This document shows, one piece after another, positions 16,693 to 57,130 of a stretch of 64,000 bases of DNA. Source of the DNA: Longispora fulva (GTDB lineage Bacteria; Actinomycetota; Actinomycetes; Mycobacteriales; Micromonosporaceae). Position numbers and translations under genes: made by a program. The stretch is from assembly GCF_015751905.1 (NCBI RefSeq), contig NZ_JADOUF010000001.1, forward strand, positions 7,316,001-7,380,000, in the 5' to 3' direction. Numbering within the stretch: position 1 is the stretch's first letter; each line of letters starts with the position of its first letter. Below the pieces are notes generated by a model, which did no database searches, was not told where the DNA came from, and saw only the letters and a list, made by a program, of their open reading frames with translations.

Positions 16693-16737
16693 GTGAGGTG
16701 GGTGGTTATCCAACTGAATAGGGAAGCGGGGGCCAGG

Positions 16738-21751: not shown

Positions 21752-22732
21752 GTGCCGCTGCATCACGTGAGCCTGTTCGCGGGCGTCGGCGGGTTCGATC
21801 TCGCCGCCGCCCGCGCGGGGCTGACCCCGGCGCTCGCTGTGGAGATCGACCCCGCCGCCCGGGGCGTGCTCGCCGACCGGCTGCCGTCCCTTCCCTTGCT
21901 GTCCGACGTGCGTGAGGTATCCGCCCGTGACCTGGCAACAGCCGTCCCTGATCCCGCCGACTGCTTTCTCACCGCCGGGTGGCCCTGCCAAGACCTGTCC
22001 ACCGCAGGCAACCGCGCCGGACTCGACGGCGAGCGGTCCGGACTGTTCTTCGAGCTGCTGCGCATCCTCGACGGGCTGCGCCCCGGCTGGTTCCTGCTGG
22101 AGAACGTCCCCGGGCTGCTCACCAGCAACGCCGGGCGGGACATGGGCACCGTCGTCGGGTCGCTGGCCGACCTCGGGTACCGCCTGGCCTGGCGGGTACT
22201 CGACGCTCAAGGTTTCGGAGTTCCCCAGCGACGCCGCCGCCTGTACTTTCTCGGCCATCGCGGCGCGGGAGATCCCGCCGCAGTACTACTTGAGCCCGAA
22301 AGCGGCGGCGGGCGCGCTGCGCCGTATCGACCGCCGGGGCCGCCGACTGCCGCCGGACCTGCGCGACGCGCTGGCCCTGCTCGCAGCGACACCGAACCCG
22401 TGATCGTCGGCCCCTTGCAGACCAGCCGCAGCCCGCGCGGTCACGGAACGGCCGGAGTCAATGACCAGTACGTGTTAGCCGGTCACGTGCGCGTGGCCGG
22501 TCCCGCCGCCGTCCGCCGCCTGGTGCCCGTCGAGTACGAGCGCCTACAGGGCTTCCCGGACGGATGGACCGCCACCAGCTACGGCAACCCCCAGGGGGAC
22601 GTGCCGCGCTTCACCCAGCTCGGCAACGCCGCGCCCGTGCCCGTCGCCGAGTGGATCACGCGGCGGCTGGTCGCACACCACAACTCAACAACAGGAAGGA
22701 GTGACCCGCCTTGTTCGACCGCGAAGAGGTAG
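21752..22732 (+). CDS. C5-cytosine DNA methyltransferase
   Basis: 326 residues with the ordered m5C motifs: I (SLFAGVGGFDLAAARAG), IV (TAGWPCQDLSTAG, catalytic Cys), VI (LLENVPGLL), VIII (GVPQRRRRLYFLG), IX/X (RRLVPVEYERLQGFPDGW; FTQLGNAAPVPVAEWI). The target recognition region (~200-260) is short and low complexity. No restriction enzyme is adjacent, so it is a solitary methyltransferase, as often seen in phage replication modules where it protects DNA from host restriction. It overlaps the primase-helicase start by 22 bases. Confidence 0.93.
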   Translation: MPLHHVSLFAGVGGFDLAAARAGLTPALAVEIDPAARGVLADRLPSLPLLSDVREVSARDLATAVPDPADCFLTAGWPCQDLSTAGNRAGLDGERSGLFFELLRILDGLRPGWFLLENVPGLLTSNAGRDMGTVVGSLADLGYRLAWRVLDAQGFGVPQRRRRLYFLGHRGAGDPAAVLLEPESGGGRAAPYRPPGPPTAAGPARRAGPARSDTEPVIVGPLQTSRSPRGHGTAGVNDQYVLAGHVRVAGPAAVRRLVPVEYERLQGFPDGWTATSYGNPQGDVPRFTQLGNAAPVPVAEWITRRLVAHHNSTTGRSDPPCSTAKR

Positions 22733-25344
22733 AGAACTGGCTCGCGCTGCTACACGGCGACTCCCCGGGGCTGGTGCACCTCTGCGGCACCGACGCATGG
22801 GCCGGACGCACCTTCACCCCCGACCGGCTCGCCGACGCCGCCGACTACGCCGCCCAGCTCGACGCCGAGGGCCGCGCCGGAATCTACGTCCGGATGACCA
22901 CCGTCACCCGCGCCCCGAACCGGGGCGAGCGCGGTGGGGCGAACCTGTCGGCCAGCCTGCCGGCGCTGTGGGCCGACCTGGATATCGCCGGCCCCGGCCA
23001 CAAGGTGGCGCCCGGGTCGCTGCCGCTGCCGCCGACCGAGACCGCCGCCCGCCAGATCATCACCACATCAGGACTCCCCGACCCGACACTGTGGATTCAC
23101 TCCGGCGGCGGGCTGTACCCGATCTGGTACCTCAGCGCGGCGCACGTCATCGACGGCGACCTCGACGAGCTGGGCGCGCTGTCCGCCAAGTGGCAACACA
23201 TCATCGGGGCTGCCGCTGCCCGCCTCGGCTGGCATTACGGCACCGGGGTCGGGGACCTCGCCCGGGTGCTGCGCGTGCCGGGCACCGTCAACCGCAAGAC
23301 GAACGACCCGCGCCCGTGCCGGATCGTCGAGGCCGAGGGCAGCGCGTTCACCCTCGCCGAGCTGCTCGACGCTGCCGCCGCGATCGAGCTGCCCGCCCCG
23401 GTCGCGGTCGCCGTCGCCCCCACCGCGCCCCGCGCCCGCGACCTCGCCTCGCGGTTCCGGGCACCGGGCGGCGGGCTCGGCCCGTTCGACGCGCTCGCCG
23501 AACACGCCACGTGGGGCGACATCCTCAGCCCGCTCGGCTGGTCCCTTGTGGGACACGAGCGCGACGGCGCCGAGCTGTGGCGCCGGCCCGACGCCACCTC
23601 GGCATACTCCGCCCGCGCCAACCACGCCGGCACCCCGACGCTCGTCGTTCACAGCGACGCCGCCGGGCTCCCGTCCGGCCCGGGGCAGCGCCTCACGATG
23701 GGCCGAGTCTGGGCGCACCTGCACCACCGGGGTGACGAGCAGGCCGCAGCCCGCGACCTGGCCGCCGCCGCTGCCGGTACCGCCGGGGCGTCGGCCGCCG
23801 CGCTCTCGCTGCCGGGCACGGTCCTCGCCGCTGTCCGGGGCACCCGGGGCGCTCGTATCCCGGCACCCCGTGCCAGCCCCGAGCAGCCAACCCCGAGGGC
23901 GGCCCCCTCGACCGAAGCGGCACCCGCCGCGCCGGTCGAGCGCCGCCTCGCCCTAGTCGACGGCACCGCCGCCCGCGCCCTACCTGCGCCGGACCCCGAG
24001 CCGGTCGCGTCCGGGGCGCTGCCCGTCAGCTTCACCGACGACGGAAACGCCCTCCTGCTCGCCGACACCATCGGGGCCACCACCCGGTACGTGCCCGAGC
24101 GCGGCAAGTGGTTGGTGTGGGATGGCGGGCGCTGGGCGTGGGACGACGCCGGGACGGTCATCGAGCGCGCCCGGGTCATGGTCCGGGCGCTGCCCGCAGA
24201 CGACGACGCCGCCCGCAAGCACCGCACGCGGTCGCTGTCGAGGGCGGGTATCGACGCGATGATCGCCCTTGCCCGCACTGACCGGCGGCTCGTCGCCCCG
24301 GCGGCGCTGCTCGACGGCGACCCGTTCGCGCTGTGCACCCCGGGCGGGGTGGTCGACCTGCGCACCGGAAACACGCGGCCCGCCAACCCGGCCGAGCTGC
24401 ACACCCGGTCCACGCTGGTCACCGCCGATGCCGGGCACCCGGTCGAGCGTTGGTCGCGGTTCCTCGCCGACACGTTCGGGGACGACCCGGACCTCGCCGG
24501 GTACGTACAACGCATGGTCGGGTACGCCGCGACGGGCCGCGTGGCCTATCACGTGCTGCCGTTCCTGTTCGGTGCGGGCGGCAACGGAAAGTCGGTGTTC
24601 CTCGACGTGGTGCGCCGGCTGCTCGGCGACTACGCCGGGTCGGCCCCGGCTAACTTCCTGATGGCCGGCGCCCAGCAGCACGAAACCGAGGTCGCCCGCC
24701 TCGCGGGGCTGCGGTTCGTGATCTGCTCCGAGGTCAACCAATCCGACCGGTTCGACGAGGCGCGCATCAAGCTGCTTACTGGCGGCGACGCCCTGACGGC
24801 CCGGTTCCTGCACCGTGATCACTTCACGTTCGAGCCGTCGCACACCCTGTTTCTGATGGGCAACCACCAGCCGAGCGTGCGGTCGGGCGGCGTGAGCTTC
24901 TGGCGCCGGTTGCGGCTCATCCCGTTCACGAAGGTCGTGCCCGAGGAACGCCGCGAGGAAGGTCTCGCCGACCGCCTGGTCGACACCGAGGGGCCCGGCA
25001 TCCTCGCGTGGATCGTCGCCGGGGCAGTCGACGCCCTCGCCGGGGGGCTGCGCGACCCCGACAGCGTGAAGGCCGCCACCGACGACTACGCCGCCGAAGA
25101 GGACTCGCTCGCCCGGTTCGTGGACGACCGGTTGCACATCGGGGGCGGCGACCTGGTGCGCACCGCCACCGCCGAGGTCCGCCAGGCGTACGAAGCCTGG
25201 TGCGCCGAGGAGGGTGAGCGCGCCATCTCGTCGCAGATGTTCGGCCGCGAGCTGCGGTCGCGCTACGGGGTGACCGTCGCCCGGTCGCACGGTCGGCGCT
25301 TCTACACCGCCGTCACGCTGCTCGACGGGGTGCCCGATGCGTAG
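22711..25344 (+). CDS. Phage primase-polymerase / SF3 (D5-like) helicase
   Basis: 877 residues. The N-terminal third is a bifunctional primase/polymerase-like domain (LPALWADLDIAGPGHK, LWIHSGGGLYPIWYL, VLRVPGTVNRK). After an Ala/Pro linker (~390-420) come D5_N and the SF3 ATPase: Walker A FLFGAGGNGKSVFLDVV, Walker B-type FVICSEVNQ, motif C THTLFLMGNHQPSV-like segment, and a C-terminal winged-helix part. Initiates and drives phage replication. TTG 22711 has AAGGAG upstream. A repeat array lies immediately downstream. Confidence 0.9.
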   Translation: MFDREEVENWLALLHGDSPGLVHLCGTDAWAGRTFTPDRLADAADYAAQLDAEGRAGIYVRMTTVTRAPNRGERGGANLSASLPALWADLDIAGPGHKVAPGSLPLPPTETAARQIITTSGLPDPTLWIHSGGGLYPIWYLSAAHVIDGDLDELGALSAKWQHIIGAAAARLGWHYGTGVGDLARVLRVPGTVNRKTNDPRPCRIVEAEGSAFTLAELLDAAAAIELPAPVAVAVAPTAPRARDLASRFRAPGGGLGPFDALAEHATWGDILSPLGWSLVGHERDGAELWRRPDATSAYSARANHAGTPTLVVHSDAAGLPSGPGQRLTMGRVWAHLHHRGDEQAAARDLAAAAAGTAGASAAALSLPGTVLAAVRGTRGARIPAPRASPEQPTPRAAPSTEAAPAAPVERRLALVDGTAARALPAPDPEPVASGALPVSFTDDGNALLLADTIGATTRYVPERGKWLVWDGGRWAWDDAGTVIERARVMVRALPADDDAARKHRTRSLSRAGIDAMIALARTDRRLVAPAALLDGDPFALCTPGGVVDLRTGNTRPANPAELHTRSTLVTADAGHPVERWSRFLADTFGDDPDLAGYVQRMVGYAATGRVAYHVLPFLFGAGGNGKSVFLDVVRRLLGDYAGSAPANFLMAGAQQHETEVARLAGLRFVICSEVNQSDRFDEARIKLLTGGDALTARFLHRDHFTFEPSHTLFLMGNHQPSVRSGGVSFWRRLRLIPFTKVVPEERREEGLADRLVDTEGPGILAWIVAGAVDALAGGLRDPDSVKAATDDYAAEEDSLARFVDDRLHIGGGDLVRTATAEVRQAYEAWCAEEGERAISSQMFGRELRSRYGVTVARSHGRRFYTAVTLLDGVPDA

Positions 25345-30619: not shown

Positions 30620-31045
30620 ATGCCCGCCACCCGTGGCCCAGTGCCCAAGCGTTCCGACCAGCGCCGCCGTCGTAACGCTGGCGAGCCGGTCACCAGCATC
30701 ACCCCGGCGGCCGAGCCGGTTGACGCCCCGCCGCTGGGTTTCCCGGCGCACGAGCTGGCCGCCGACTGGTACTCGTCCCTCGCCGAGTCCGGCCAGTCGC
30801 AGTACTTCGAGCCGTCCGACTGGCAGGCGGCCCGGCTGCTCGCCTACGACCTGACCCGCCATCTCAACTCGGGGCGGGTGTCCGCGCAGATGCTCGCCGC
30901 GGTCTGGTCGGCGATGGGTGACCTCCTGACCACCGAGGCCGCCCGGCGGCGTGTGCGCATGGAGATCGAGCGCGACCAGGGCGACGAGGACCTCGCGGGG
31001 GTGACGGCGCTTGATGAGTACCGCCGTGCACTCGGCGCCGGCTGA
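30620..31045 (+). CDS. Terminase small subunit
   Basis: 141 residues. The N-terminal RGPVPKRSDQRRRRN is the usual start of actinophage small terminases; helices EPSDWQAARLLAYDLTRHLN and AQMLAAVWSAMGDLLTTEAA follow, ending in acidic ERDQGDEDLAG. It recognises the packaging site and delivers it to the large subunit, whose gene overlaps its 3' end. Confidence 0.85.
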   Translation: MPATRGPVPKRSDQRRRRNAGEPVTSITPAAEPVDAPPLGFPAHELAADWYSSLAESGQSQYFEPSDWQAARLLAYDLTRHLNSGRVSAQMLAAVWSAMGDLLTTEAARRRVRMEIERDQGDEDLAGVTALDEYRRALGAG

Positions 31046-32669
31046 CCCGCCGCGCGTCGAGCCTGTCAGGATCGGCCCCGTTGGGCTGCCGCGCTGGTCG
31101 CTGGGCTGGGACATGCTCGCCTGGTCGGCCCGCTACCTGCTCCAGCCGGACGGGCCCGACGCCGGTCGCCCGTGGCGCTTCACCCCGGAACAGGCCCGTT
31201 TCCTGGTCTGGTTCTACGCGATCGACGAGCGCGGCAAGTTCACGAACCGGTACGCCGTGTATCGCCGCCTCAAGGGCGCCGGGAAAGATCCCCTCGCCTC
31301 GGCAGTGTCCAGCCTGGAATTCGTCGGCCCGTGCCGGTTCGGCGGGTGGCGCGCGGACGGCACTCCGATCGTGGTCCCGCACCCCGCGCCGTGGGTGCAG
31401 ATCGCCGCCGTGTCCCGGGATCAGACCCGTAACACCATGACCCTGTTCGGGCCGATGCTGTCGCGTAAGGCGATCGAAGAGTTCGGCATCGACCTCGGCA
31501 AAGAGATCATCCACAGCCGCCGGGGCGGGCGTATCGAGGCCGTGACCAGCTCGCCCCGCGCGCTGGAAGGTGGCCGCGCGACCCTGGTCATCAAGAACGA
31601 AAACCACCACTGGATCGGGTCGAACTCTGGGCACGAGATGTCCGAGGTCATCGCCCGAAACGCCGCTAAGTCCAGGGACGGGGCGTCCAGGGCGCTCGCC
31701 ATCACCAACGCGCATGAGCCCGGCGAGGACAGCGACGCCGAGCGCGACTACGACGCGTGGTTGTCGATCCAGGCTGGTCGCAGCATCGCCGATGGGCTGT
31801 TGTACGACTCGATCGAGGCGCCGCCCGACACCGACCTCGCCGACCCTGCCTCGCTGCGGGCCGGGCTGATCGCGGCCCGGGGCGACTCGATCTGGTTGGA
31901 CGTCGACCGCCTGGTCGCCGAGATCCAGGACCCGCGCACGCCGCCGAGCATGTCGCGCCGCTTCTACCTCAACCAGGTCGTTTCGGCCCCCGATGGGTGG
32001 TTGACCGCGCCGGAGTGGGACGCGTGCGCCGACCCGGGCCGCGTGGTCGAGGACGGCGAGACGGTCGTCATGTTCTTCGACGGCTCCAAGTCCAACGACG
32101 CGAGCGGCCTGGTCGGCTGCTGCGTGTCGGACGGGCATACGTTCGTCATCGACGCGTGGGAGAAGCCCGCCGGCCCCGCTGGCGAGGGCTGGGAAGTCAA
32201 CCGCGACGCCGTGAATCTGGCCGTGCGTAAGGCTTTCGGCCGCTGGGACGTCGTCGCCTTCTACTGCGACGTGCGCGAGTTCGAGCAGCACGTCGACCTC
32301 TGGCGCGACGAGTACGGCGACCGGCTGCTCATCCAGGCCACCACCGGCCAGCGGGCGCACGCGACCGCCTGGGACATGCGCACCCGAGTGCGGGAGTTCA
32401 CCGCCGCCGCCGAGCGCACCCTCGTCGACCTGGCCGACCGGGCCCTGTCCCACGACGGCGACCCCCGGCTACGCCGGCACGCCCTCAACGCCCGCCGCCG
32501 GCCGAACCGGTACGGGGTGGGGCTGGGCAAGGAATCCCGAAATTCCGACCGCAAGGTCGATCTCATCGTCTGCGCCGTCGGCGCCCGCCAGGCCCGCCGC
32601 GACCTGATCGCTTCCGGGGCGCTGCTCAAGCGCCGCAGCAACCGAACCGGCCGTGTCTGGTCGTTCTGA
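31014..32669 (+). CDS. Terminase large subunit
   Basis: 551 residues from ATG 31014 (TTG 31011 adjacent). The ATPase P-loop is the actinophage variant RRLKGAGKDPLASAV; the Walker B equivalent is VIKNENHHW. The nuclease domain has acidic residues in VMFFDGSKSNDASGLVG, YCDVREFEQHV and DRKVDLIVCAVGA. Powers DNA packaging and cuts the concatemer. It overlaps terS by 32 bases. Confidence 0.93.
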   Translation: MSTAVHSAPADPPRVEPVRIGPVGLPRWSLGWDMLAWSARYLLQPDGPDAGRPWRFTPEQARFLVWFYAIDERGKFTNRYAVYRRLKGAGKDPLASAVSSLEFVGPCRFGGWRADGTPIVVPHPAPWVQIAAVSRDQTRNTMTLFGPMLSRKAIEEFGIDLGKEIIHSRRGGRIEAVTSSPRALEGGRATLVIKNENHHWIGSNSGHEMSEVIARNAAKSRDGASRALAITNAHEPGEDSDAERDYDAWLSIQAGRSIADGLLYDSIEAPPDTDLADPASLRAGLIAARGDSIWLDVDRLVAEIQDPRTPPSMSRRFYLNQVVSAPDGWLTAPEWDACADPGRVVEDGETVVMFFDGSKSNDASGLVGCCVSDGHTFVIDAWEKPAGPAGEGWEVNRDAVNLAVRKAFGRWDVVAFYCDVREFEQHVDLWRDEYGDRLLIQATTGQRAHATAWDMRTRVREFTAAAERTLVDLADRALSHDGDPRLRRHALNARRRPNRYGVGLGKESRNSDRKVDLIVCAVGARQARRDLIASGALLKRRSNRTGRVWSF

Positions 32670-32684
32670 CCCGAGGGGGTGACT

Positions 32685-34073
32685 GTGCCCCTGGTCCCCG
32701 CCCTCGACCCGGCCGCAGTAGTCGAGCTGGCCGCCGAGCTGCTGCCGCGGTTTCGCACCGAGCGCCAGCGCCTCGACCGGATCGACAAGTACATGCGCGG
32801 CCAGCACGCCGGCCCGTACACGCCCAAGTCTGCGTCGAAGGAGTACAAGCTACTCGCCGAGCGCGCCCGGACGAACCTGCTCCCGCTGGTCGTGTCGGGC
32901 GTGGCTCAGGCGTTGTACGTGTCGAACTTCCAGCGCAGCGACGGCACCCCGGGCCGGGGCTGGGCGCACTGGCAGGCCAACCGCATGGACGCGCGACAGA
33001 CCGCGATCCACCGGGCGGCGCTGACCTACGGCACGGCCTACGTCCTGGTGCTGCCGGGCGTCGACCCGCTGACCAAGGTGTCGATGCCCGTCATCCGGGG
33101 CGTGTCCCCGCGCCGCATGATCGCCGCGTGGGACGACCCGGCCGACGACGACTGGCCGCGCTACGTGCTGCGCGTCGACCCCGCCCCGGGCGGCGGGTGG
33201 GCGCTGCGCCTGTACGACGCCACCCACGTCTACTACCTCAGCGCCGACCGGGGCGACGGCATCACGTTCGTGCGGGCCGAGTGGCACGGCGCGGGCGTGT
33301 GCCCCGTGATCGCGTTCCGGGCGCTGCCGGACCTTGAGGGCAGGGTGCTCGGCGAGGTCGAGCCGCTGATCGACTCTCAGGACCGGCTGAATCAAACCAT
33401 CTTCGACCTGTTGGTTAGCCAGTCGTTCGGGTCGTTCGCCATCCGTTACGTGACCGGCATGGCCCCCGAGGTCGACGCGGACGGCAAGCCCCGGCCCCTG
33501 GCCGTGGACGCCCGCCGCCTGCTGATGGCAGCCGACCCCGACACCCGGTTCGGGCAGCTCGACGGCGCGAACCTCTCGCCCCTGCTGGAGTCGGCGGACG
33601 CGTCGATGCGGCACATGGCCGTCATCTCCCAGACCCCCGCCTCAGACCTGCTCGGCCAGCTCGCCAACCTCAGCGCCGAGGCGCTCGCCGCAGCGCGCGA
33701 CGGCCAGACGCGTAAGCGCACCGAGTACGAGACCGGGTTCGGCGAGAACTGGGAACAGGTGCTACAGCTCGCCTCCGCCGTCGCGGGCGACGAGGAGGGC
33801 GCGCGCGAAACGGCGGCCGAGGTCCGTTGGCGCGATATGGAGGCCCGTTCCCTGTCGCAGATTGTCGACGCGCTCGGCAAGGCCGCGACGATGCTCGGCA
33901 TTCCGCCGGAGGCTCTCTGGTCGCGGATTCCGGGCGTGACTCAGACCGAGGTCAACGAGTGGAAGGCGCTGCGCCGCGACTCCGACCCCCTCGCTGCCCT
34001 GGCCGACACCCTCGACCGGCAGGCCCGGCCGACCGGAACGGCGGGGGCACACGATGGCGGCGAGGCTGGCTGA
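32685..34073 (+). CDS. Portal protein (SPP1 gp6-like)
   Basis: 462 residues. RIDKYMRGQHAGPYTPKSAS, LLPLVVSGVAQALYVSNFQR, and EVEPLIDSQDRLNQTIFDLL followed by SQSFGSFAIRYVTG are characteristic of the SPP1-type portal family. Forms the ring at the capsid vertex. GAGGGGG at 32673-32679 favours GTG 32685; a GTG at 32679 overlaps that site. It overlaps the MuF-like gene by 20 bases. Confidence 0.9.
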   Translation: MPLVPALDPAAVVELAAELLPRFRTERQRLDRIDKYMRGQHAGPYTPKSASKEYKLLAERARTNLLPLVVSGVAQALYVSNFQRSDGTPGRGWAHWQANRMDARQTAIHRAALTYGTAYVLVLPGVDPLTKVSMPVIRGVSPRRMIAAWDDPADDDWPRYVLRVDPAPGGGWALRLYDATHVYYLSADRGDGITFVRAEWHGAGVCPVIAFRALPDLEGRVLGEVEPLIDSQDRLNQTIFDLLVSQSFGSFAIRYVTGMAPEVDADGKPRPLAVDARRLLMAADPDTRFGQLDGANLSPLLESADASMRHMAVISQTPASDLLGQLANLSAEALAAARDGQTRKRTEYETGFGENWEQVLQLASAVAGDEEGARETAAEVRWRDMEARSLSQIVDALGKAATMLGIPPEALWSRIPGVTQTEVNEWKALRRDSDPLAALADTLDRQARPTGTAGAHDGGEAG

Positions 34074-36550: not shown

Positions 36551-37459
36551 GTGGCTCACACCTTCCTCAAGCCCTCCGTCATCGCCAAGACTGCGTTGGG
36601 CCTGCTTCAGCGTGAGATCGTGCTGCCCGCGCTCGTGTGGCGTGACGCCGCGCCCGACTTCACGGGCGCGTTCAACGACACGGTGTCGCTGCGCGTTCCG
36701 GCGCGTGCCAAGGCCCGCCGGCTGGCGCTGCGCGACCGGACCAACCCGATCGTCACTGACGACCTGACCGAGACCAAGGTCGACGTCAGCCTCGACACGC
36801 ACGTCTACCACGCCGCGAGCGTCACCGATGAAGAGCTGTCCCTCGACATCAGCTCGTTCGGCGAGCAGATCCTCGCCCCCCAGGTGCGCGCCATCGCCGA
36901 GGACATCGAGGATCAGGTCGCCGCCGAGATGACCGGCGCCACCTACGCGACGTCCCTGGTGCTCGACGCGAACAAGCCCGAGAACACGCTCGTGGACGCC
37001 CGCGCCGCGCTGAACAAGCAGAACGTGCCCATGTCCGAGCGGTTCGTCGTGGTCGGCACCGACATGGAGTCGCTGTTCCTCAAGGCCGACGCCCTCAAGC
37101 GCGTCAACGAGTCTGGCTCTGACTCGGTGCTCACCGAGGCCAAGCTCGGACGCCTGCGAGGCTTCGACATCTACGTGTCCAACGCGCTCCCGGCGGGCGT
37201 CGGGTTCGCCTTCCACCGCTCCGCCTACGTGCTGTCGATGCGCGCCCCGGCCGTCCCCGACGGTGCCACCTTCGGACAGTCGGAGTCCTACGCGTCGATG
37301 GCGATGCGCTGGCTCCGCGACTACGACGCCGCGTACCTGCGCGACCGCTCCGTCGTGTCCGTGTTCACCGGTACCAACGTGGTCGCCGACGGGCCGGACG
37401 GCCCCGACGCCGGCACGGCGCCCGACTTCGTGCGCGCGGTCAAGCTCACGCTTGTGTAG
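36551..37459 (+). CDS. Major capsid protein (P22 coat-like)
   Basis: 302 residues. LQREIVLPALVWRDAAPDFT, VSLRVPARAKARRL, VTDEELSLDISSFGEQILAP and VVVGTDMESLFLKADALKRV are typical of the P22-coat-type HK97-fold family in actinophages. Shine-Dalgarno TGGAGG precedes GTG 36551. Confidence 0.88.
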   Translation: MAHTFLKPSVIAKTALGLLQREIVLPALVWRDAAPDFTGAFNDTVSLRVPARAKARRLALRDRTNPIVTDDLTETKVDVSLDTHVYHAASVTDEELSLDISSFGEQILAPQVRAIAEDIEDQVAAEMTGATYATSLVLDANKPENTLVDARAALNKQNVPMSERFVVVGTDMESLFLKADALKRVNESGSDSVLTEAKLGRLRGFDIYVSNALPAGVGFAFHRSAYVLSMRAPAVPDGATFGQSESYASMAMRWLRDYDAAYLRDRSVVSVFTGTNVVADGPDGPDAGTAPDFVRAVKLTLV

Positions 37460-40417: not shown

Positions 40418-43267
40418 GTGGCTCAGGGCCCCGGTGGTGTCGAGGCAAGCCGCGTGTTCGTGCGCGTGCTGCCCAACGTGGCGGACTTCGCCAAGTCCCT
40501 TGACCGCTACCTCAAGCGGGTCGAGGCCCGCACGGTGCTGCGGATTCGCACCGAGATCGACGGCGAGCAGCTCGTCGCCCAGGTCCGCGACGCCGCCCGC
40601 CGCGCCCAGGCCGTCACGATCGACGTGCCGACCAGCGTGCACACGGCCGGCATGGTCGGGGAGGTCCGCCGCGCCGCCGCCGTCGCCGAACGCTCGACGT
40701 CGATCGACGTGCCGGTCACCGCCGACACCCGCCGCCTGTCCGCCGCCCTCGCCGGGCTGGGGGCGCTGGCCGGCAAGGGCCGGGGCGCGCTCGGGTTCCT
40801 CGCCCAGGGGTCGAAGCTGGCCGTGGGCGCTGCCGCGCTGGCCGGGATGGTCACCCAGGCTGTGCACCTGGTCGCGGCCCTCGCCCCGGCCGCCGGGGCG
40901 CTCGGCGCGATTCCCGCCCTCGCCGTTACGGGCGCCGCCGCGCTGGTCACGCTCAAGCTCGCTTTCTCCGGCGTCGGCGACGCCCTGGCCGGTGACCCCG
41001 AGGCGCTCGCCAAGCTGGCGCCCAGCGCGCGGGCGTTCGTCGGCGAGCTGCTGCGCGCCCGCCCGGCGCTTGACGCCCTCAAGGCCGGAGTGCAGCAAGC
41101 CGTATTCGGGCCGCTGTCGGTTGAGGTCCAAGGGCTGGTGCGGACCTGGTTGCCGCTGCTGTCGCGGCACCTGGCCAGCATCGGCGGCGAGTTCGGGCTC
41201 GTCTTCGGCCAGTTCGCCAAGGGTGCGCAGACGCCCGAGTTCATCCGGGGCATCGTCGCCGCCCTGGACGCCGCGACCGTCGGCGTTCACGGCTGGGGCG
41301 CCGCCGCCATCCCGATCATGCAGGCCGTCGGCAACATCGTCGGCGCGTTTGCTCCCGCGATCGGCCGGGTCGGGTCCGGGCTCGCCGACGCCGCCCGCCA
41401 GGCCGCCGAGTTCGTCAATGCCGCCGCCGAGTCGGGCAAGCTCGCCGAGTTCGTCGGCCAGGTCGGCGCCACGCTGCGCCAGATCGGCGGGATTCTCCTT
41501 CAGGTCGGCGGCATCCTCGGCGCCGTGTTCTCCGCCGCGCAGGCATCCGGCGGCGGGCTGCTGAACAACCTTGAGCAGATCCTCACCGCCGTCAATCAGT
41601 TCTTGTCGGCCGGCGCCGGTCAAACCGCACTGATCGACTTCTTTGCCTCGGCGTCGGGGATCATCCGGACCCTGCTGCCGATCGTCACCACGCTCGCCGC
41701 CGGGTTCGGGTCGGTGCTCGCCCCGGCCCTGCTCAAGGTCGCCGGGCTGCTCGGCCCCGGGCTCCAGGCCGCCGCGTCGGCCATCGTCGGCATCGTCAAG
41801 TCCCTAGTGGACTCCGGCGCGCTCGACGCCCTGGCGTCCGGGCTGTCCGACGGGCTGGCCGCCCTCGGCCCCGCCTTGATCCCCCTTGCTGGCGCGCTGG
41901 GGTCGATCGTGCGGGCCGCCGCCCCCCTGCTCCCGCTGGTCGGCAAGATCGCCGCCGTGCTGGCCGGGGTGCTGGGCAGCGCCCTTCAGAGCCTAGAACC
42001 TCTGGTCACGGCCGTAGTCGACGCCCTGTCGGAATCCGGTTTGGCCGACGTCCTGGCCGAGATCGGCGCCGAGCTGGGCCCCCTGATTGCCGCCCTGGTC
42101 GCCGACCTGATGCCGACCGTGCGGGCGCTGCTCCCGCTGCTGGGTCCCCTGCTGATGGCCGCCGGCAAGATCATCGTCATGGTGCTTGCGGCGGCGACGT
42201 CGCTGCTGACGCTGCTTCGGCCCCTGCACGAGTTCATGGCCGCGAAAGTCCTGGTGCCGGTCGTCGAGGCGCTGGCCAAGGGGCTTGTGTGGCTGGCCGG
42301 CGCCGCCGACAAGGGCGCTCAGGGCTGGCGCCTGCTGACAGCGTGGCTCCAGGATCTTGACTGGTCGCTCGTCTGGGACGCCATCGTCACGGGCGGCAAG
42401 GCCGCGCTGTCGTGGCTGCTCGCGCTACCGGGGCGGGCACTCGCCGCCCTGGCCGGGCTGCCCTCGCAGTTGGCTGGGTGGGCGCTGGGGCTGTTCGTCG
42501 ACTTCTCGTTGTGGGTCGCCGACGGCATCGCCTCGGTGCTGGTGTGGTGGTCGTCGCTGCCGGGCCGGGCCCTCGCCGCGGTTTCCTCGCTGCGCGACCG
42601 CGCGGCGGCGTTCCTGGCCGAGGTGTGGGTACGGGCGAACGCCGCCGTGTCCGCCGGAGTCGACCAGGCCGTCGCGTTCGTCCGGTCGCTGCCGGGCCGC
42701 GCCGCCGACGCCCTGTCGTCGCTGGGCTCGCGGGTGCTCGGTGTGTTCTCCGGCGCCGGTTCGTGGCTGGTCAACGCCGGACGCGACATCATCGCCGGCC
42801 TGATCAACGGCATCAATTCCATGGTGGAGCGGCTCAAGTCCAGGCTTCGCGCCATCACTGACCTGCTGCCCGACTGGAAGGGCCCGGCCGCCGTAGACCG
42901 GCGCATCCTGGCCCCGTCCGGGCGGCTGATCATGGCCGGTCTCATCGACGGCATCACCGGGCAGGTCCCGGCACTGCGGTCGGAACTGGCCGGCATCACC
43001 GCAGACATCGGCCGCGACTTCACCCTCGGGGTCAACGCCGCCGGCCCCTCGCTGGCGCTGCCCGAGCTGCCGGCGCCCCGCCCCGCCTACGGGCTGGGCA
43101 CCGCCGGACCGGTCACGCCGATCGAGCCCACGGTCAACGTCGTCGCCGAGGTCCGCATCGGCGACGGGCCGGTCATCGACGCCGTAGAGACCGCCGTCCG
43201 CCGGGCGCCGGAACGGTTCGCCTCCCACGTCCGCGCTGGCGAGCGTGGCCTACAGCGGCGGGGGTAG
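40418..43267 (+). CDS. Tape measure protein
   Basis: 949 residues, the longest phage product. Ala/Leu/Gly-rich helices and hydrophobic blocks (AALAGMVTQAVHLVAALAPA; LLPIVTTLAAGFGSVLAPAL; LPLLGPLLMAAGKIIVMVLA) with repeated SLPGRALAA/LPSQLAGWA elements around 640-800 are typical. Sets tail length and forms the DNA channel. At about 0.15 nm per residue, the length predicts a tail near 140 nm (inference). Confidence 0.92.
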   Translation: MAQGPGGVEASRVFVRVLPNVADFAKSLDRYLKRVEARTVLRIRTEIDGEQLVAQVRDAARRAQAVTIDVPTSVHTAGMVGEVRRAAAVAERSTSIDVPVTADTRRLSAALAGLGALAGKGRGALGFLAQGSKLAVGAAALAGMVTQAVHLVAALAPAAGALGAIPALAVTGAAALVTLKLAFSGVGDALAGDPEALAKLAPSARAFVGELLRARPALDALKAGVQQAVFGPLSVEVQGLVRTWLPLLSRHLASIGGEFGLVFGQFAKGAQTPEFIRGIVAALDAATVGVHGWGAAAIPIMQAVGNIVGAFAPAIGRVGSGLADAARQAAEFVNAAAESGKLAEFVGQVGATLRQIGGILLQVGGILGAVFSAAQASGGGLLNNLEQILTAVNQFLSAGAGQTALIDFFASASGIIRTLLPIVTTLAAGFGSVLAPALLKVAGLLGPGLQAAASAIVGIVKSLVDSGALDALASGLSDGLAALGPALIPLAGALGSIVRAAAPLLPLVGKIAAVLAGVLGSALQSLEPLVTAVVDALSESGLADVLAEIGAELGPLIAALVADLMPTVRALLPLLGPLLMAAGKIIVMVLAAATSLLTLLRPLHEFMAAKVLVPVVEALAKGLVWLAGAADKGAQGWRLLTAWLQDLDWSLVWDAIVTGGKAALSWLLALPGRALAALAGLPSQLAGWALGLFVDFSLWVADGIASVLVWWSSLPGRALAAVSSLRDRAAAFLAEVWVRANAAVSAGVDQAVAFVRSLPGRAADALSSLGSRVLGVFSGAGSWLVNAGRDIIAGLINGINSMVERLKSRLRAITDLLPDWKGPAAVDRRILAPSGRLIMAGLIDGITGQVPALRSELAGITADIGRDFTLGVNAAGPSLALPELPAPRPAYGLGTAGPVTPIEPTVNVVAEVRIGDGPVIDAVETAVRRAPERFASHVRAGERGLQRRG

Positions 43268-49305: not shown

Positions 49306-49315
49306 CCCACACCGC

Positions 49316-49361: not shown

Positions 49362-49371
49362 GCGTTCCGGG

Positions 49372-49575: not shown

Positions 49576-49603
49576 GACCCCATCGTGTCACACATCTGGA
49601 GGC

Positions 49604-49675: not shown

Positions 49676-49701
49676 ATCAAGTCAGGGATGGGGGAACGGC
49701 A

Positions 49702-50421: not shown

Positions 50422-50497
50422 CCCGCCGCCGGGGCGCGCGACCAGCCGCCCCGGCACCTTCCTCGCCCCGCCGATCGATCCGACTGGAGACCCCGCG

Positions 50498-51090: not shown

Positions 51091-51639
51091 CTAGCCGGTC
51101 TTCAGCGTGTGCCCCATGTACGGCTGGGTCGCACGCTGAAAGCAGGCGCCGGAAACCCGGCTGGCGATCGTGCGAACGTGTTGGAAGCCCTTGCCCATGT
51201 AGTACGCGTGAAGCCGTGGGTTTGTTGTCCAAGCATCCAGCCGTAGCCAGGTAAGCCCAGCGTCGTAAGCCTGGCCGCTGGCCCACGCGAGCATTTCGGT
51301 CCCGAGGCCTGTGCCAGCTCGTCGGCGGGGAACCATCATTTTCGCCACGTACAGCGCGTCTGCCGGGTCATCCTCTGGGTACCAGAGTGCCTCGGGGTCG
51401 CGGTCGGGTTTCCAGAGGTCATCGAGATCGACGTATCCGGTGAGCGTCAGGGTTGCTGCCGCATCGTCACCGTCCCAGACCATCCATGTCTGACCGGATT
51501 GGACGGTTGCGGCAATCGCCGAGCGGGGCAGGGGGATGGACCACTGGTCCTCGCCTCTGGCCTTGAGCCAGGCGACGCGCTCGCGGCGCCACGACATGAT
51601 GATGTCGACATCCGCAAGGGTGGCCCTGGTGACGATCAC
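51091..51639 (-). CDS. GNAT-family acetyltransferase
   Basis: 182 residues. MMVPRRRAGTGLGTEMLAWA holds the acetyl-CoA loop (RRAGTGLG) and LRLDAWTTNPRLHAYYMGKG with FQHVRT the C-terminal strand. The N-terminus (SWRRERVAWLKARGEDQWSI) is typical of actinobacterial members encoded with GntR regulators. Overlaps the regulator stop by 4 bases. Confidence 0.85.
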   Translation of the reverse strand: MIVTRATLADVDIIMSWRRERVAWLKARGEDQWSIPLPRSAIAATVQSGQTWMVWDGDDAAATLTLTGYVDLDDLWKPDRDPEALWYPEDDPADALYVAKMMVPRRRAGTGLGTEMLAWASGQAYDAGLTWLRLDAWTTNPRLHAYYMGKGFQHVRTIASRVSGACFQRATQPYMGHTLKTG

Positions 51640-52436
51640 TCGGCACTCTCGCGGTTCATGAACACGGTTGGGTCACCGAGCGTGTAGACCACGCGGTTTG
51701 CGTCTCCCCGGAACACGATCCGGGTGACCCGAATCGGCCTACCGTCGGGGAGGTAGCCGGTTCGGTGGTACTCCATGATCGGCGTGCCTGCTGGCAGTTC
51801 GAGCCGGCGTACCTCGTCGGGTGTAGGCATCCGGGTCAGCAACTCGTCACGGTAGGCCGGTTGCGGGTAACCCTTCTCGGCGAGCAAGCGAGTTGTGCCC
51901 TGCGGGATGTCGCTGGGGCTCATCAGCTCGGGTACCTCGTCGGCAAGCCACTTCGGATAGTAGGTGTCCTGCGTCGATGTGGGCTCGCCGTTGACGAAGC
52001 GGAGACAGCAGCGGACGACGGCCGAGCTGGCGTCTGCCACGTCAAGGCGCTCGGCGAGTTCAGCGGGCAGCGCCTCAATCGTCAGGTGGAACGTCTGGGT
52101 TGGTTCCCGCCCCTGTTGCTGGACCTCTGTCATGTACGCGTCAGTCTCCGCGACCAGCCCGTCAACCTGTTCGACGCGGGAAGCGTGGTAGGTCAGGGTC
52201 ACCCGATCGCGCACCACCATCCCACCGTTGCGGCCGGGAACGATCACGATCAACCCCTCGTTGACCAACAGCGCCACCGCCAGTCGGACCGTGTTCCGCG
52301 ACACCGAGTAACTGTCGACGAGCTGTGGCTCGGTGGGCAGCTTGTCGCCCGGTCGAAGCGCACCCCGTGAGATTTGGTCGCGCAGCTCGGCCGCGATCTT
52401 GCGATACAGAGAGGTCACGGGCACATCCTTCGACAT
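51636..52436 (-). CDS. GntR-family (HutC/UTRA) transcriptional regulator
   Basis: 266 residues. Winged helix at 1-75 (LYRKIAAELRDQISRGALRP; YSVSRNTVRLAVALLVNEGL) and a UTRA ligand domain (AERLDVADASSAVVRCCLRF; GTPIMEYHRTGYLPDGRPIR). ATG 52436 has no Shine-Dalgarno and follows TAGATT (read leftward, 52455-52450) by about a dozen bases, so the mRNA may be leaderless. An inverted-repeat operator overlaps the start. Similar regulators (KorSA type) control pSAM2-like integrative elements. Confidence 0.85.
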   Translation of the reverse strand: MSKDVPVTSLYRKIAAELRDQISRGALRPGDKLPTEPQLVDSYSVSRNTVRLAVALLVNEGLIVIVPGRNGGMVVRDRVTLTYHASRVEQVDGLVAETDAYMTEVQQQGREPTQTFHLTIEALPAELAERLDVADASSAVVRCCLRFVNGEPTSTQDTYYPKWLADEVPELMSPSDIPQGTTRLLAEKGYPQPAYRDELLTRMPTPDEVRRLELPAGTPIMEYHRTGYLPDGRPIRVTRIVFRGDANRVVYTLGDPTVFMNRESAE

Positions 52437-52502
52437 AGGTACCAACCAAATCTAGCCCAGTCCTTGACTATGATCGGCACCACATTAATGATTGGTACCT
52501 AT
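52435..52502. promoter_or_regulatory. Divergent promoter region with two inverted GntR operators
   Basis: ATAGGTACCAA (52435-52445) and TTGGTACCTAT (52492-52502) are exact inverses 46 bp apart. Between them, TTGACT (52464-52469) and TAATGAT (from 52486) form a rightward promoter; the second operator starts at its -10 region, the first covers the regulator start. Confidence 0.75.
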
Positions 52503-52862: not shown

Positions 52863-53516
52863 ATGATGGATCACGCAATGCGTCACTCACGCTCTGTGTA
52901 CCACGAACCACCTTCTACCGCTACCGGGCTCGGGGTTGCCGACGCCCGCGACATCCTGGGCGAGCACGTGCTCGACCCGCGTTCGCGAGCATGCCGCGCG
53001 TGTGGAACGCCGGGACCGTGTCCGGCCGCCGACGCCGCTATCGCCGTGCTCGCGCGTCTCGGCGTCCGCCTTCCTGGCATGGGCAAGCTGGCACCGGTTG
53101 ACGGGCCGACGGTGGTGCTGCCCACGGTGCCGCCGCCCCGGTGCTTGGTCGCGCCCGAGCGGCCCAAGGGGCTGCCCAGCCACCACGCTGCCCCCGCACC
53201 GTCCCCGGCGCCGCCGGGTGTCGACCCGCTTGATTGGGCGCTCGCGTCGCGTCTCCTGTGGGACCACCGCGCCGACGAGTCAGGGGTGTGTCGTGCGTGC
53301 GGCACGTCGTACTGGTGCAGTGCTCGCCGGCTGGTCGAGCGGGTCATCAACGGACGCCGCCCGTCCCCGCAGCCCCGCCCCGAGCCGGCCGACAGGTTGC
53401 GACTGTCGGCACCGGGGTCGAGGCCGCGCCGCGTGCCTGGCGAGGCTGGCCGTGCCTACTTCGCGCCGCCGCCGTACTGGGGCGCGCGCGGTTGGTTCGG
53501 GGAGGCTGCGGCATGA
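52863..53516 (+). CDS. Protein with two Cys-x-x-Cys motifs
   Basis: 217 residues from ATG 52863 (or 52866), AGGAAAGGA upstream. Two repeats share ILGEHVLDPRSRACRACGTP and LLWDHRADESGVCRACGTSY, each continuing with another Cys (GPCPAAD; WCSARR): a C-x2-C-x(4-5)-C knuckle probably binding zinc. Pro-rich linkers separate them. Function unknown; such proteins accompany regulators in actinomycete mobile elements. Confidence 0.6.
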   Translation: MMDHAMRHSRSVYHEPPSTATGLGVADARDILGEHVLDPRSRACRACGTPGPCPAADAAIAVLARLGVRLPGMGKLAPVDGPTVVLPTVPPPRCLVAPERPKGLPSHHAAPAPSPAPPGVDPLDWALASRLLWDHRADESGVCRACGTSYWCSARRLVERVINGRRPSPQPRPEPADRLRLSAPGSRPRRVPGEAGRAYFAPPPYWGARGWFGEAAA

Positions 53517-53878
53517 CGGTCAACGGGCGCACGCTGCCGCTGGCCGTGCCGCAGGGGACAGCGTTAGGGACGCTCGCCACCCGGTACGACGACAGCGCGA
53601 GAAAGAGCATGATCCCGGGCGGGTACCGCATCGAGTGCGACGGGCACCACTGGCTGTGGCTGATGCCGGGAGTCGGCTACAAGATCAGCCACGACGGGCA
53701 CGCGTGGATGGTCGAGGGCGGCGAGTGGGGGCTCGTGCGCCTCACCTGTGACGGCGGACCCGTTACCGTGCTTCCCACCTCGTACCGCGAGCAGCCCCTC
53801 GATCCTCGCGAAACCTACGTCGTGGTGCCCGACTTCGAGATGTGGGCGACCTGGGAACTGTTCAGGTGGCGCGGATGA
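53513..53878 (+). CDS. Hypothetical beta-rich protein
   Basis: 121 residues, start overlapping the previous stop (ATGA). Contains aromatic-rich strands (GHHWLWLMPGVGYKISHDGH; AWMVEGGEWGLVRLTCDGG). No family recognised. Overlaps the next gene by ATGA, so co-translated. Confidence 0.55.
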   Translation: MTVNGRTLPLAVPQGTALGTLATRYDDSARKSMIPGGYRIECDGHHWLWLMPGVGYKISHDGHAWMVEGGEWGLVRLTCDGGPVTVLPTSYREQPLDPRETYVVVPDFEMWATWELFRWRG

Positions 53879-54228
53879 CCAGCGCCCGCGACCAGCCACC
53901 CCCGCCCGATCCGATCCGGCCGCCGCGCCCGTTCGCGCTGCGCCGCTGGTCTGACCCCACCGGAGTCAGCGGCACGGGCGTCGTCGCGCACGGCGTGGTG
54001 TGGTTCGACGGCCGGGTCGAGCTGCGCTGGATCGGCACCACAACCGGGGTCACGAGTAGCTGCTCGTACGACTCGATTGACGACGTGCTGCGCGTGCACG
54101 GGCACGGCGGACGCACCGAGGTCGCATGGCTGCCCGAGCCGTCGCCGAAACGCTGGTGTGGCAACCCGTGCCCCACCCACCCGAGCGACGACGCCAGCGT
54201 GAGCGCTGCACGTTTGACTCTGACCTGA
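53875..54228 (+). CDS. Conserved actinobacterial hypothetical protein
   Basis: 117 residues. VSGTGVVAHGVVWFDGRVEL, RWIGTTTG and VLRVHGHGGRTEVAWL form a pattern (GxGVVA-x-G...DG...RW...HGHGG) repeatedly seen in short actinobacterial proteins of unknown function. Last gene before a strong terminator. Confidence 0.6.
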   Translation: MTSARDQPPPPDPIRPPRPFALRRWSDPTGVSGTGVVAHGVVWFDGRVELRWIGTTTGVTSSCSYDSIDDVLRVHGHGGRTEVAWLPEPSPKRWCGNPCPTHPSDDASVSAARLTLT

Positions 54229-54322
54229 TCCACTCAACTCGCGGCGGCTCCTGGGATCGGGCCGCCGCCGCGCCCCGACCGCTGGCGGTGCCACTCACAC
54301 GCCGCCGGCCGTGCGGGGCAAC

Positions 54323-54363
54323 GCCGGGGCCCGCTCGTTTCCCAACAAGCGGCGGGCCCCGGC
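54323..54363 (+). terminator. Terminator isolating the RiPP cluster
   Basis: GCCGGGGCCCGC (54323-54334) is perfectly inverse to GCGGGCCCCGGC (54352-54363). It separates the GntR operon from the graspetide genes. Confidence 0.75.
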
Positions 54364-54394
54364 ACCTCGACCCGACACAACCGGGAGGCACGAC

Positions 54395-54484
54395 GTGACG
54401 CTCGATGTGACACCACGCGGGAGGGGCCCGCCGACCTGCGCGCGGTTGAACCGGCACCAGCAGATCCATAGCGAGCGCACCTAG
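54395..54484 (+). CDS. Possible 29-residue small ORF
   Basis: GTG 54395 has GGGAGG seven bases upstream and encodes VTLDVTPRGRGPPTCARLNR plus nine residues before a stop. Only the ribosome-binding site supports it. The rest of 54229-54557 has no other gene; a weak promoter (TTGAAC 54446-54451, TAGCGA 54469-54474) and an inverted repeat GTCGT/ACGAC near 54492-54507 lie before the precursor gene. Confidence 0.2.
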   Translation: MTLDVTPRGRGPPTCARLNRHQQIHSERT

Positions 54485-54557
54485 TCGAAAGTCGTCGATT
54501 TACGACACAGTGAATACGCGCCGCACCTGTGGCGCACCTCGTGAAGGAGGCCCGTTC

Positions 54558-54821
54558 ATGTACCCCCCAATGTTCGGCCCGGCGCAGCCGGACCCCCTGA
54601 TGCCGGCATCCCGCCTGTTCCCCCGGGCGCTGCCAATCGTGCCCGGCAACGACGAGCAGCCCACTGACGCCCGTCCCTTCGTGCTGCGGGGCACGGTGCC
54701 CGGCATCGTCACGGCAAAGCACCGCACACCGGCCACGCTGAAGAAGCACAGCAACCCGACCAGCCTCGACGGCCCCAAGGCTGGCACCAAGAACGACGAG
54801 TACACGACCCCCGACGACTGA
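54558..54821 (+). CDS. Graspetide precursor peptide (ATP-grasp target RiPP)
   Basis: 87 residues, AAGGAGG upstream of ATG 54558. The leader (1-~50) is Pro-rich and contains DARPFVLRGTVPG. The C-terminal ~35 residues have the crosslinking composition: Thr/Ser at 52, 57, 60, 65, 68, 69, then Asp71-Gly72, then Asp80, Glu81, Asp86, Asp87. Hydroxyls before a central DG and acids after it are what a hairpin of omega-ester bonds needs; the DG is a natural aspartimide site. The stop overlaps the ligase start (TGATG). Confidence 0.85.
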   Translation: MYPPMFGPAQPDPLMPASRLFPRALPIVPGNDEQPTDARPFVLRGTVPGIVTAKHRTPATLKKHSNPTSLDGPKAGTKNDEYTTPDD

Positions 54822-55774
54822 TGACCATCCTTATCATCAGCGCGCGCGGCGACTGGTCGGCTGAAGTTGTGGCCGATCAGCTCGCCGCGCGCGGCGTCGA
54901 CTGCATCCGCATCGATCCGGGGGAGTTCCCCCGCGATGCGCGCCTCGCCGCCCGCCTGGGCGCGGGGTGGTCGGGGACGTTCACCGGGAACGGCGGCCCC
55001 CGGCTCGCGCTGGAGGACGTCACGGCCGTGTACTACCGCCGCCCGAGTGACTTCACCATGCCCGACGGCATGTCCGGCCCCGAGCTGGGATTCGCCCGCT
55101 CACAGGCCCGGGTCGGCGTCGGTGGTGTCCTGGCCTCGCTGCCGGTCAAGTGGATCAACCACCCCGGGGCACTGGCTGATGTCGAGTACAAGCCGCGCCA
55201 ACTCGCCGCCGCCGCCGACGTCGGGTTCATCGTCCCTCCGACGCTGATCACCAACGACGCCGCCGCTGTCCGCGAGTTCGCCGAGGCGACGGGCGATCTG
55301 GTGGTCAAGCCGCTCGCCGACCCCATCGTCGCCGAGGCCGGCGACTACACCCCCGTATGGACCCGGCGCGTCACCGCCGCCGACCTGGTCGACCTCGCCG
55401 GGGTGGAGACCACCGCCCACCTGTTCCAAGCATGGGTGCCCAAAGCCTTCGAGGTCCGCCTCACCGTCGTCGGCCGCCGGCTGTTCCCCGCCGCCATCCA
55501 CGCCGGTTCCGACGCCGCTCGGGTGGACTGGCGGGCCGACTACGACTCGCTGACGTACGAGACGATCGCCTGCCCCGCGCCCGTCGTAGCCTCGGTGGCG
55601 AGGTTTCAACAGCGGTTCGGCCTGATCTACGGCGCGTATGACTTCGTCGTCACGCCTGATGCCCGCTGGGTGTTTCTGGAGTGCAACGGCGGCGGCCAGT
55701 TTGGCTGGCTCACCGAGGAACTTGACCTACCCATACCGGCGGCCATCGCCGACGAACTCACGGAGGCACCATGA
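54821..55774 (+). CDS. ATP-grasp ribosomal peptide maturase (graspetide ligase)
   Basis: 317 residues. VYYRRPSDF, WINHPGALADVEYKPRQLAA, DLVVKPLADP (ATP-binding Lys), FQAWVPKAFEVRLTVVGRRL, VDWRADYDSLTYE and DARWVFLECNGGGQFGWLTE (metal-binding Glu/Asn) match the MvdD/TgmB-type maturases, specifically the actinobacterial SAV_5884-type group. It uses ATP to activate Asp/Glu side chains of the precursor and join them to Thr/Ser. Overlaps both neighbours. Confidence 0.92.
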   Translation: MTILIISARGDWSAEVVADQLAARGVDCIRIDPGEFPRDARLAARLGAGWSGTFTGNGGPRLALEDVTAVYYRRPSDFTMPDGMSGPELGFARSQARVGVGGVLASLPVKWINHPGALADVEYKPRQLAAAADVGFIVPPTLITNDAAAVREFAEATGDLVVKPLADPIVAEAGDYTPVWTRRVTAADLVDLAGVETTAHLFQAWVPKAFEVRLTVVGRRLFPAAIHAGSDAARVDWRADYDSLTYETIACPAPVVASVARFQQRFGLIYGAYDFVVTPDARWVFLECNGGGQFGWLTEELDLPIPAAIADELTEAP

Positions 55775-56877
55775 CCGACTGGCACGCCCAAGCCCGCGCC
55801 CTCGCCGCCCGGCTGACGGCTGACGGCGCGCTCACTGACCCGGCCTGGCGGGCAGCGATCGAGGCGACCCCACGCCACCGGTTCGTGCCCGAGGTCCCCG
55901 TCGAGGACGCATACACCGACGACGCCCTCGTCACCCAGACCCGGCCCGGCGACCTCGGCGGCGGCGCGTTCATCGAGATCCCGACATCCTCGGCCAGCGC
56001 ACCCGAGGCCGTCGCGGTGATGCTCGAAAACCTCAACATCACCGACGGGGCCCGGGTGCTGGAGATCGGGACCGGCACCGGATACAACGCCGCCCTACTG
56101 TGTCACCGCCTCGGCCCCGACCGGGTGTACTCCGTCGACCTGGACCCGGCGCTAGTGGACCGCGCGCGCGATGTGCTGGCCGACCTCGACTATCACCCGA
56201 CGCTGAAGGCCGCCGACGGATACGCCGGGCTCCCCAGCGCGGCACCGTTCGACGCCATCCTCGCCACCTGCTCAGTAACCCAGATCCCCCCGGCCTGGAT
56301 CACTCAACTCGCCCCCGGCGGGCGCATCGTCGCGCCCCTACACGGCGGAACCGACGCCGCGCTCATGGTCCTCACCAAAACCGCCCCCGACGAAGTAGTC
56401 GGGCACTTCGACCCACACCGCATGTCGTTCATGCCCCTACGCCCCCGCCTCGACGACCCGCTCGCCGGGCCTCGCGCCAGCACCCACGGCCGGATGCCCC
56501 ACTACGGCACCACCACCCTCGACCCGGAACGCCTGACCAACCCCGACGACGAACTCGCCTTGTTCCTCCACCTGCACATCCCGGGACTGTCCATCGGCAC
56601 CACAGAGGGCGGACCCACCGGCAAGGCAGTCACCATCTCCGACGCCGCATCACTCGCCGAGGTCCCGCTCATCCCCGCCGGCCCCGGCCGCTGGACCGCG
56701 CTACAACGGGGCCCCGCCCGACTCTGGGACACCGTCGAGCACGCCGCCGCCCTCTGGGACACCCTCGGCCGCCCCGGACGCGACCGCCTCGGCATCACCG
56801 CCCTCGACGACCCCGACCGCCAATACATCTGGCTCGACGACCCCGACGGGCCCTACTCCTGGCCCATGCCGCTGTAG
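55771..56877 (+). CDS. PIMT-type methyltransferase of the graspetide cluster
   Basis: 368 residues. The PIMT core is intact: RHRFVPE, IPTSSASAPEAVAVMLENLN, SAM motif I RVLEIGTGTGYNAALLCH, and post-motif ILATCSVTQIPPAWITQLAP. It has a C-terminal extension of ~150 residues absent from repair PIMTs and typical of methyltransferases paired with ATP-grasp maturases. In fuscimiditide-type graspetides such an enzyme methylates an Asp, which then closes to aspartimide; Asp71-Gly72 of the precursor is the likely target here. ATGA overlap with the ligase. Confidence 0.9.
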   Translation: MTDWHAQARALAARLTADGALTDPAWRAAIEATPRHRFVPEVPVEDAYTDDALVTQTRPGDLGGGAFIEIPTSSASAPEAVAVMLENLNITDGARVLEIGTGTGYNAALLCHRLGPDRVYSVDLDPALVDRARDVLADLDYHPTLKAADGYAGLPSAAPFDAILATCSVTQIPPAWITQLAPGGRIVAPLHGGTDAALMVLTKTAPDEVVGHFDPHRMSFMPLRPRLDDPLAGPRASTHGRMPHYGTTTLDPERLTNPDDELALFLHLHIPGLSIGTTEGGPTGKAVTISDAASLAEVPLIPAGPGRWTALQRGPARLWDTVEHAAALWDTLGRPGRDRLGITALDDPDRQYIWLDDPDGPYSWPMPL

Positions 56878-57130
56878 CTGGATGTCGCGGCCCCTGAAGG
56901 CACAAGCCCGAGGGGGTCGCGCTGGTCATCCGTGCTGTTCACTTTGAATCTCCCATGATACGGTTCAAACTGAACAGAAGTTATCCACAGGCTGTTCACA
57001 ACGTCAGCCAATCCCGCGCTCTGGTCTCTGTTTCCCCAGCTCAACCGGAAGTGTTGGTTATCCACAGGGCCGGGTTCCGGCCGGTGGATTCTTGGCACGC
57101 TTCCCTCACATCCATCGAGAGGGAAATCTG
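56878..57130. other. Right phage-host junction, no gene
   Basis: This stretch holds the attR core, two perfect DnaA boxes (56981-56989 and 57058-57066) and AT-richer DNA (ATGATACGGTTCAAACTGAA near 56956). Nothing coding is seen on its own. Joined to the left host side it would extend the ADP-ribosylglycohydrolase frame. Confidence 0.5.
56979..56992. repeat. attR core candidate, contains DnaA box
   Basis: AGTTATCCACAGGC is identical to 16608-16621. It lies 101 bases past the last phage gene and 138 bases before the host ssb-like gene. Confidence 0.65.

Follow-up and report, generated by a model that had tools for sequence, protein, structure and literature searches.

Graspimiditides such as fuscimiditide (ThfABM), amycolimiditide (AmdABM), albusimiditide and the product of SsfABM are encoded by three genes and are chemically well studied. 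In these systems, a precursor with an RPF leader motif is accompanied by a TIGR04187-type ligase and by a PIMT homologue bearing a C-terminal domain and a WXXXGXP motif, and the precursor combines Thr donors, an Asp-Gly loop and C-terminal Asp acceptors. The fuscimiditide precursor ThfA is recognised through RPFG in its leader (PMC13003496), and the characterised graspimiditides contain Thr-Asp esters around a loop in which a methylated Asp is followed by Gly (PMC13001092). No biological role of graspimiditides was found in the portions of the literature searched. Small RiPP clusters are known as phage cargo from Streptomyces prophages that carry class I lanthipeptide clusters, and a survey of actinobacterial prophages reported putative small clusters in 13 of 2112; in the portions of its text that were available, lanthipeptides and type III PKS were named and graspetides were not (PMC10023795). 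The words phage, plasmid and mobile do not occur in a graspetide phylogenomics paper (PMC8939145), and no report of phage-borne graspetides was found in the main texts of the open papers searched.

The whole stretch of DNA analysed here, a 64-kb window (G000:C1:7316001-7380000), contained a Longispora prophage of about 40.5 kb, which enclosed three genes at 54558-56877. Judged by its gene content, this locus is a cluster for a group-13 graspetide (graspimiditide), a class whose chemistry is known, and it is very probable that its three prophage genes together produce a small cross-linked peptide. The genes, all on the forward strand, encode a precursor peptide of 87 aa (54558..54821), an ATP-grasp graspetide synthetase of 317 aa (the ligase, 54821..55774) and a PIMT-like methyltransferase of 368 aa (55771..56877); stop and start codons overlapped between neighbours, confirming the tight arrangement described in the initial annotation. 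The ligase scored 362 bits against TIGR04187 (cut-off 350) and also matched PF21068, and its solved structural relatives (5IG9, 7M4S, 5IG8, 7MGV and 7DRM) were graspetide synthetases and their kin, so that its earlier assignment as a graspetide maturase was upheld. The best model for the methyltransferase was TIGR04188, at 302 bits under the curated cut-off of 380. This protein matched PF01135, carried an extra C-terminal domain and had the WXXXGXP motif as W329-DTL-G-R-P335, with W329 invariant in 19 homologues. Its AlphaFold model (pLDDT 90) had a two-domain PIMT fold and was best matched in the PDB, over the full length, by the T. maritima PIMT 1DL5, the protein to which RiPP-associated PIMTs were compared in a review (PMC13001092); the best match in a library of predicted viral structures covered only about 200 columns. 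The description as a PIMT homologue with a C-terminal extension was thus borne out by the PF01135 match, the motif and the full-length structural alignment. Curated profiles had been proposed as a check on the cluster, and the outcome was mixed: the ligase passed, while the methyltransferase stayed below its threshold and the precursor had no NCBIfam or Pfam match in the profile search. The single missing precursor match is not decisive, since group-13 precursors are of several types, distinguished by leader and core (PMC13001092). In its methyltransferase score and its unmatched precursor, the cluster differed from the characterised graspimiditides, as it did in its prophage slot and its new core sequence. 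No transporter or protease adjoined the triplet, in agreement with the initial annotation.

Precursor homologues were encoded directly 5' of the two closest ligases outside Longispora, in Actinocatenispora comari (L021; 53% identity) and in the Micromonosporaceae genome G339 (56%). The elements DPLMP, RP(F/Y)VLRG, (K/R)HRTPAT, Asp-Gly and a terminal TPDD were kept across these homologues. The leader motif RPFV occupied precursor residues 39-42 (54672-54683) and the Asp-Gly residues 71-72 (54768-54773), with Thr before it and Asp/Glu after it. From these conserved features, the ThfA motif and the chemistry of the characterised graspimiditides, we infer that T57, T60 and T68 are donors, that D80, E81, D86 and D87 are acceptors and that D71 is the aspartimide site. 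By analogy with the characterised family, the ligase would bind the RPF(V) leader motif, phosphorylate the side chains of the Asp/Glu acceptors close to the C-terminal end of the core and join the phosphorylated acids to the Thr hydroxyls; the predicted donor-acceptor pairing would give nested omega-esters and a stem-loop. The methyltransferase would methylate D71 of the loop, leading to an aspartimide or to the isoAsp formed by its hydrolysis, and the leader would be cut off by a host protease.

Phage structural and replication genes were assigned by PHROGs profiles from 16.7 to 43.3 kb of the window. On the forward strand, they comprised a tyrosine integrase (16693..17886; phrog_216/phrog_1, PF00589), a phage DNA primase/polymerase-helicase (22711..25344; phrog_2478, E 1e-190), a terminase large subunit (31011..32669; phrog_9), a portal protein (32679..34073; phrog_104), a major head protein (36551..37459; phrog_283) and a tail tape-measure protein (40418..43267; phrog_305). 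An XRE-type HTH protein, the probable phage repressor, was encoded on the reverse strand (18670..19470; PF13560/PF01381). A second prophage of the same chromosome (P2, 7798954-7839389) was homologous to that of the window (P1) at 16609-27576 (98.6%), 47022-51039 (94%) and 52885-57068 (97%), with a sharp stop at both ends. The sequence TTATCCACAGG had exactly three matches in the window, all on the forward strand and every one at the prophage ends: the attL core (16610..16620), next to the start of P2 homology at 16609; the attR core (57058..57068), where P2 homology stops; and a further copy by the right end (56981..56991), a possible integrase arm site. The prophage ends were placed at 16609/16610 and 57068 because the P2 homology stopped there and the repeat was present. 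A tRNA-Arg at 14957-15031 was rejected as the attachment site on account of the homology boundary and the TTATCCACAGG copies at 16610 and 57058. The attachment core includes a DnaA-box-like sequence, TTATCCACA, and similar sequences end all four prophages of the sister set described below. The two flanking genes, one on the left at 15123-15632 and an SSB-like one on the right at 57092-57598, were separated by 41.5 kb here and by 39.2 kb in Longispora albida. Eleven further genomes of the family had these genes at a spacing of only 1.1-2.5 kb and contained no cluster in the gap, showing that the cluster lies inside the insertion. Its initial placement within the prophage, last before attR, therefore agreed with the phage genes, the limits of P2 homology and the repeats, and the triplet was absent from the phage-free locus of these 11 relatives. 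Separately, the prophage gene at 47439-48755 was weakly Beta-lactamase2-like (PF13354, below cut-off), and a host gene outside the prophage (62475-63500) was about 50% identical to it.

When 355 genomes of the family were searched, close homologues of the window integrase (64-98%) were found only in two Longispora genomes, with two copies each: P1 and P2 in this genome, and P3 and P4 in L. albida (G001). The triplet stood at the right end of all four prophages. P1 and P3 were inserted at the SSB site, and P2 and P4 at another site, adjoining a gene starting MSAEDLEKYETEMELQLYREYRD. The adjacent regulatory genes were GNAT plus GntR in P1 and P4 and XRE plus DUF397 in P2 and P3. The backbones of P1 and P3 were 67-81% identical (terminase 76%, portal 81%, integrase 79%), whereas their ligases shared just 44% identity. 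In the ligase tree, P1 and P2 grouped with G339 and Actinocatenispora (0.936), and P3 and P4 with the chromosomal locus of this genome (0.997). Because the backbones were alike while the ligases were divergent and belonged to different clades, cassettes of two clades have entered a fixed cargo slot. Over about 2.3 kb, the P1 and P2 triplets differed at only 4 positions, compared with 18% divergence of the DNA at 52885-53500, and these near-identical triplets adjoined different regulators. Taken from these alignments and the tree, graspimiditide cassettes were exchanged between phages in a fixed right-end slot. Alternatively, the prophages of each site may have been inherited from a common ancestor and the cassettes alone replaced, which leaves the argument for a slot unchanged. 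P3 and P4 were 87% identical in the ligase and 83% in the precursor, against 62% in the integrase and 46-49% in the tail genes. The ligase dN/dS between them was 0.14-0.21; by sequence comparison, the phage-borne ligase and precursor of L. albida are under purifying selection. Unlike the lanthipeptide clusters of Streptomyces prophages, this cargo is of the graspetide class, occurs without exception throughout one phage lineage and is exchanged among its members.

The initial annotation had proposed a survey of other phages for the same triplet; besides the sister prophages, the triplet was found in prophages of the genome G280 and in Streptomyces phage-plasmids. Profiles identified a terminase and a portal ahead of the triplet in two prophage regions of G280, one of which also held capsid-like, tape-measure-like and lysis-like genes when the sequences were read by eye. 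The Streptomyces zaomyceticus plasmid NZ_CP107934 (125 kb) carried an integrase, the triplet, a portal and an annotated major capsid protein, and a 126-kb contig (NZ_FNSY01000003 / IMG/VR 2671180089) had a homologous portal beside the triplet. The Streptomyces clusters associated with XRE-DUF397 on plasmids or phage-plasmids resemble the Longispora ones in the triplet, in the upstream XRE-DUF397 pair and in residing on a mobile element that encodes an integrase, a portal and a major capsid protein. However, their carrier is a plasmid-like phage of 125 kb, their ligase is about 50% identical and their precursor is of another type. Only contigs with hallmark genes were counted as phage-borne; membership in IMG/VR was rejected as proof of phage carriage, as phrog_9 was present in 1 and an above-cut-off portal in 2 of ten ligase contigs. 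Six ligase loci were found in G280, among them two pairs that were nearly identical (97% over 2.5 kb; C1 2088118 / 4206677 and 435300 / 4393283), indicating recent spread within that genome.

Ligases were present in 48 Micromonosporaceae genomes, at about 71 loci. Seven of these loci were preceded on the same strand by a phrog_9 terminase no more than 35 kb away, compared with about 0.75 co-locations expected in either direction (P = 1e-5, which overstates the significance because the seven include sister prophages and are not independent). The other 64 had no same-strand upstream terminase within 35 kb. Most group-13 clusters are chromosomal, and phage carriage is recurrent but not the rule. 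This genome held a third cluster, locus B (G000:855743), in a chromosomal context; its interpretation as a prophage remnant was unsupported, as a homologous integrase was lacking and the part of the flanks inspected showed no recognisable phage genes. The G339 ligase (66% identical) was likewise rejected as prophage-borne, since it sits among transposase-like genes with no recognisable prophage. Among isolated phage genomes, no close relative was found, only two distant ATP-grasp matches (33% and 28%). In Leptospira phage LE1 (KF114876; L184 3886-4960), which has a ParB gene, a 37-aa ORF rich in Thr and acidic residues was located just 5' of an ATP-grasp gene, possibly another class of phage-borne graspetide. 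On an unverified faecal phage scaffold (MT835913; L185 2700-3942), an ATP-grasp gene was preceded by an ORF in which acid-rich segments recur, resembling a multi-core graspetide precursor.

Upstream of the cassette, a GNAT acetyltransferase-like protein (51091..51639; PF00583, weak) and a GntR/UTRA regulator (51636..52445; PF00392, PF07702) were encoded on the reverse strand. The former was 88% identical in P4 and had a DUF397-type protein in its place in P2; the latter was 75% identical in P4, and its position in P2 and P3 was taken by an XRE-type regulator. Two small conserved ORFs with no Pfam match followed on the forward strand, at 53513..53878 (MTVNGRTLP...) and 53875..54228 (MTSARDQ...RPFALRRW...). 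Both also stood before the chromosomal graspetide cluster of this genome, where the first lay in a region of 73% nucleotide similarity (G000:853927-855240), and homologues of the second were found directly upstream of Kribbella graspetide clusters. The RPFALRR near the start of the second protein resembles the precursor leader RPFVLRG, but this likeness may be coincidence, as the Kribbella homologues have RRFVLRR. Between the upstream genes and the triplet, RNA folding revealed a terminator-like GC-rich hairpin on the forward strand (54323..54363; z = -5.1), as stable as which were 0 of 200 shuffles. The claim that the triplet stands behind its own terminator was thus sustained as to the hairpin, but the T run looked for there was absent. 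No promoter-like site was found near the triplet. The hairpin and the adjacent regulator (GntR in P1, XRE-DUF397 in the sister) probably allow expression from the quiescent prophage.

Together, we consider it likely that the triplet makes up a graspimiditide cassette which a lineage of temperate Longispora phages carries in its right-end slot as lysogenic cargo, with the chemistry and expression proposed above and with a benefit to its carrier. Lysogenic-conversion cargo, as first suggested, is the best reading of the cassette from the genomic comparisons. The repeated keeping and swapping of the gene set suggests that the peptide pays for the virus or the host, and we propose that phages retain and trade the cassette on account of an advantage that the peptide gives the lysogen or the prophage, most likely when competing against bacteria nearby. 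Competition is a leading guess, against which signalling and protease inhibition are the rivals.

The peptide might instead signal to, or regulate, the prophage, co-resident prophages or host development through the adjacent XRE-DUF397 or GntR proteins, in analogy to phage communication peptides, which we regard as unlikely. Such regulators adjoined the cassette in all four sister prophages, related prophages share a host in both species, and DUF397-DUF5753 pairs have been reported beside group 11 and 13 graspetides (PMC13097080). However, the near-identical triplets of P1 and P2 adjoin different, unrelated regulators, making the neighbouring regulator an improbable dedicated receptor of the peptide, and no exporter or importer was found beside the cassette. 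About equally unlikely is that the peptide serves the phage itself, through superinfection exclusion, competition with co-resident prophages or a lysis-lysogeny signal; the slot in Longispora phages was never empty while its clades were swapped. If this were true, graspimiditides would gain a function in phage biology.

Somewhat less probable is a product that remains intracellular and acts as an inhibitor of a protease or another enzyme in the manner of microviridins, for example blunting the defence of the host or of a competing phage. An aspartimide is an electrophile, and no transporter lies beside the triplet. Microviridins, the best-known graspetides, are described as serine-protease inhibitors in the portions of two papers that were available (PMC13039773, PMC9826346), but the graspimiditide stem-loop is unlike the microviridin cage, and the portions of the literature searched contained no report of a graspimiditide target or of inhibition. 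It is less likely again that the cassette is a neutral passenger gained by recombination. Group-13 clusters are mostly chromosomal, phages acquire host DNA, and the close P1 and P2 copies could stem from recent recombination; against this, the cassette was carried by each of the four sister prophages and by further types of phage, was swapped for its own kind rather than lost, and was under purifying selection in ligase and precursor between P3 and P4. A chromosomal graspetide cluster merely abutting a prophage with its right boundary further to the left, for which the third, chromosomal copy in this genome could speak, is highly improbable, given that P2 homology spans the triplet and ends with the att-like repeat at 57068 and that the flanks are adjacent and lack the cluster in 11 relatives.

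The chemistry of this cluster is already known. The keeping and exchange of the cargo in several phage types point to selection for the peptide lying with the mobile element and the lysogen, and carriage by phages makes the role of graspimiditides testable in lysogens.
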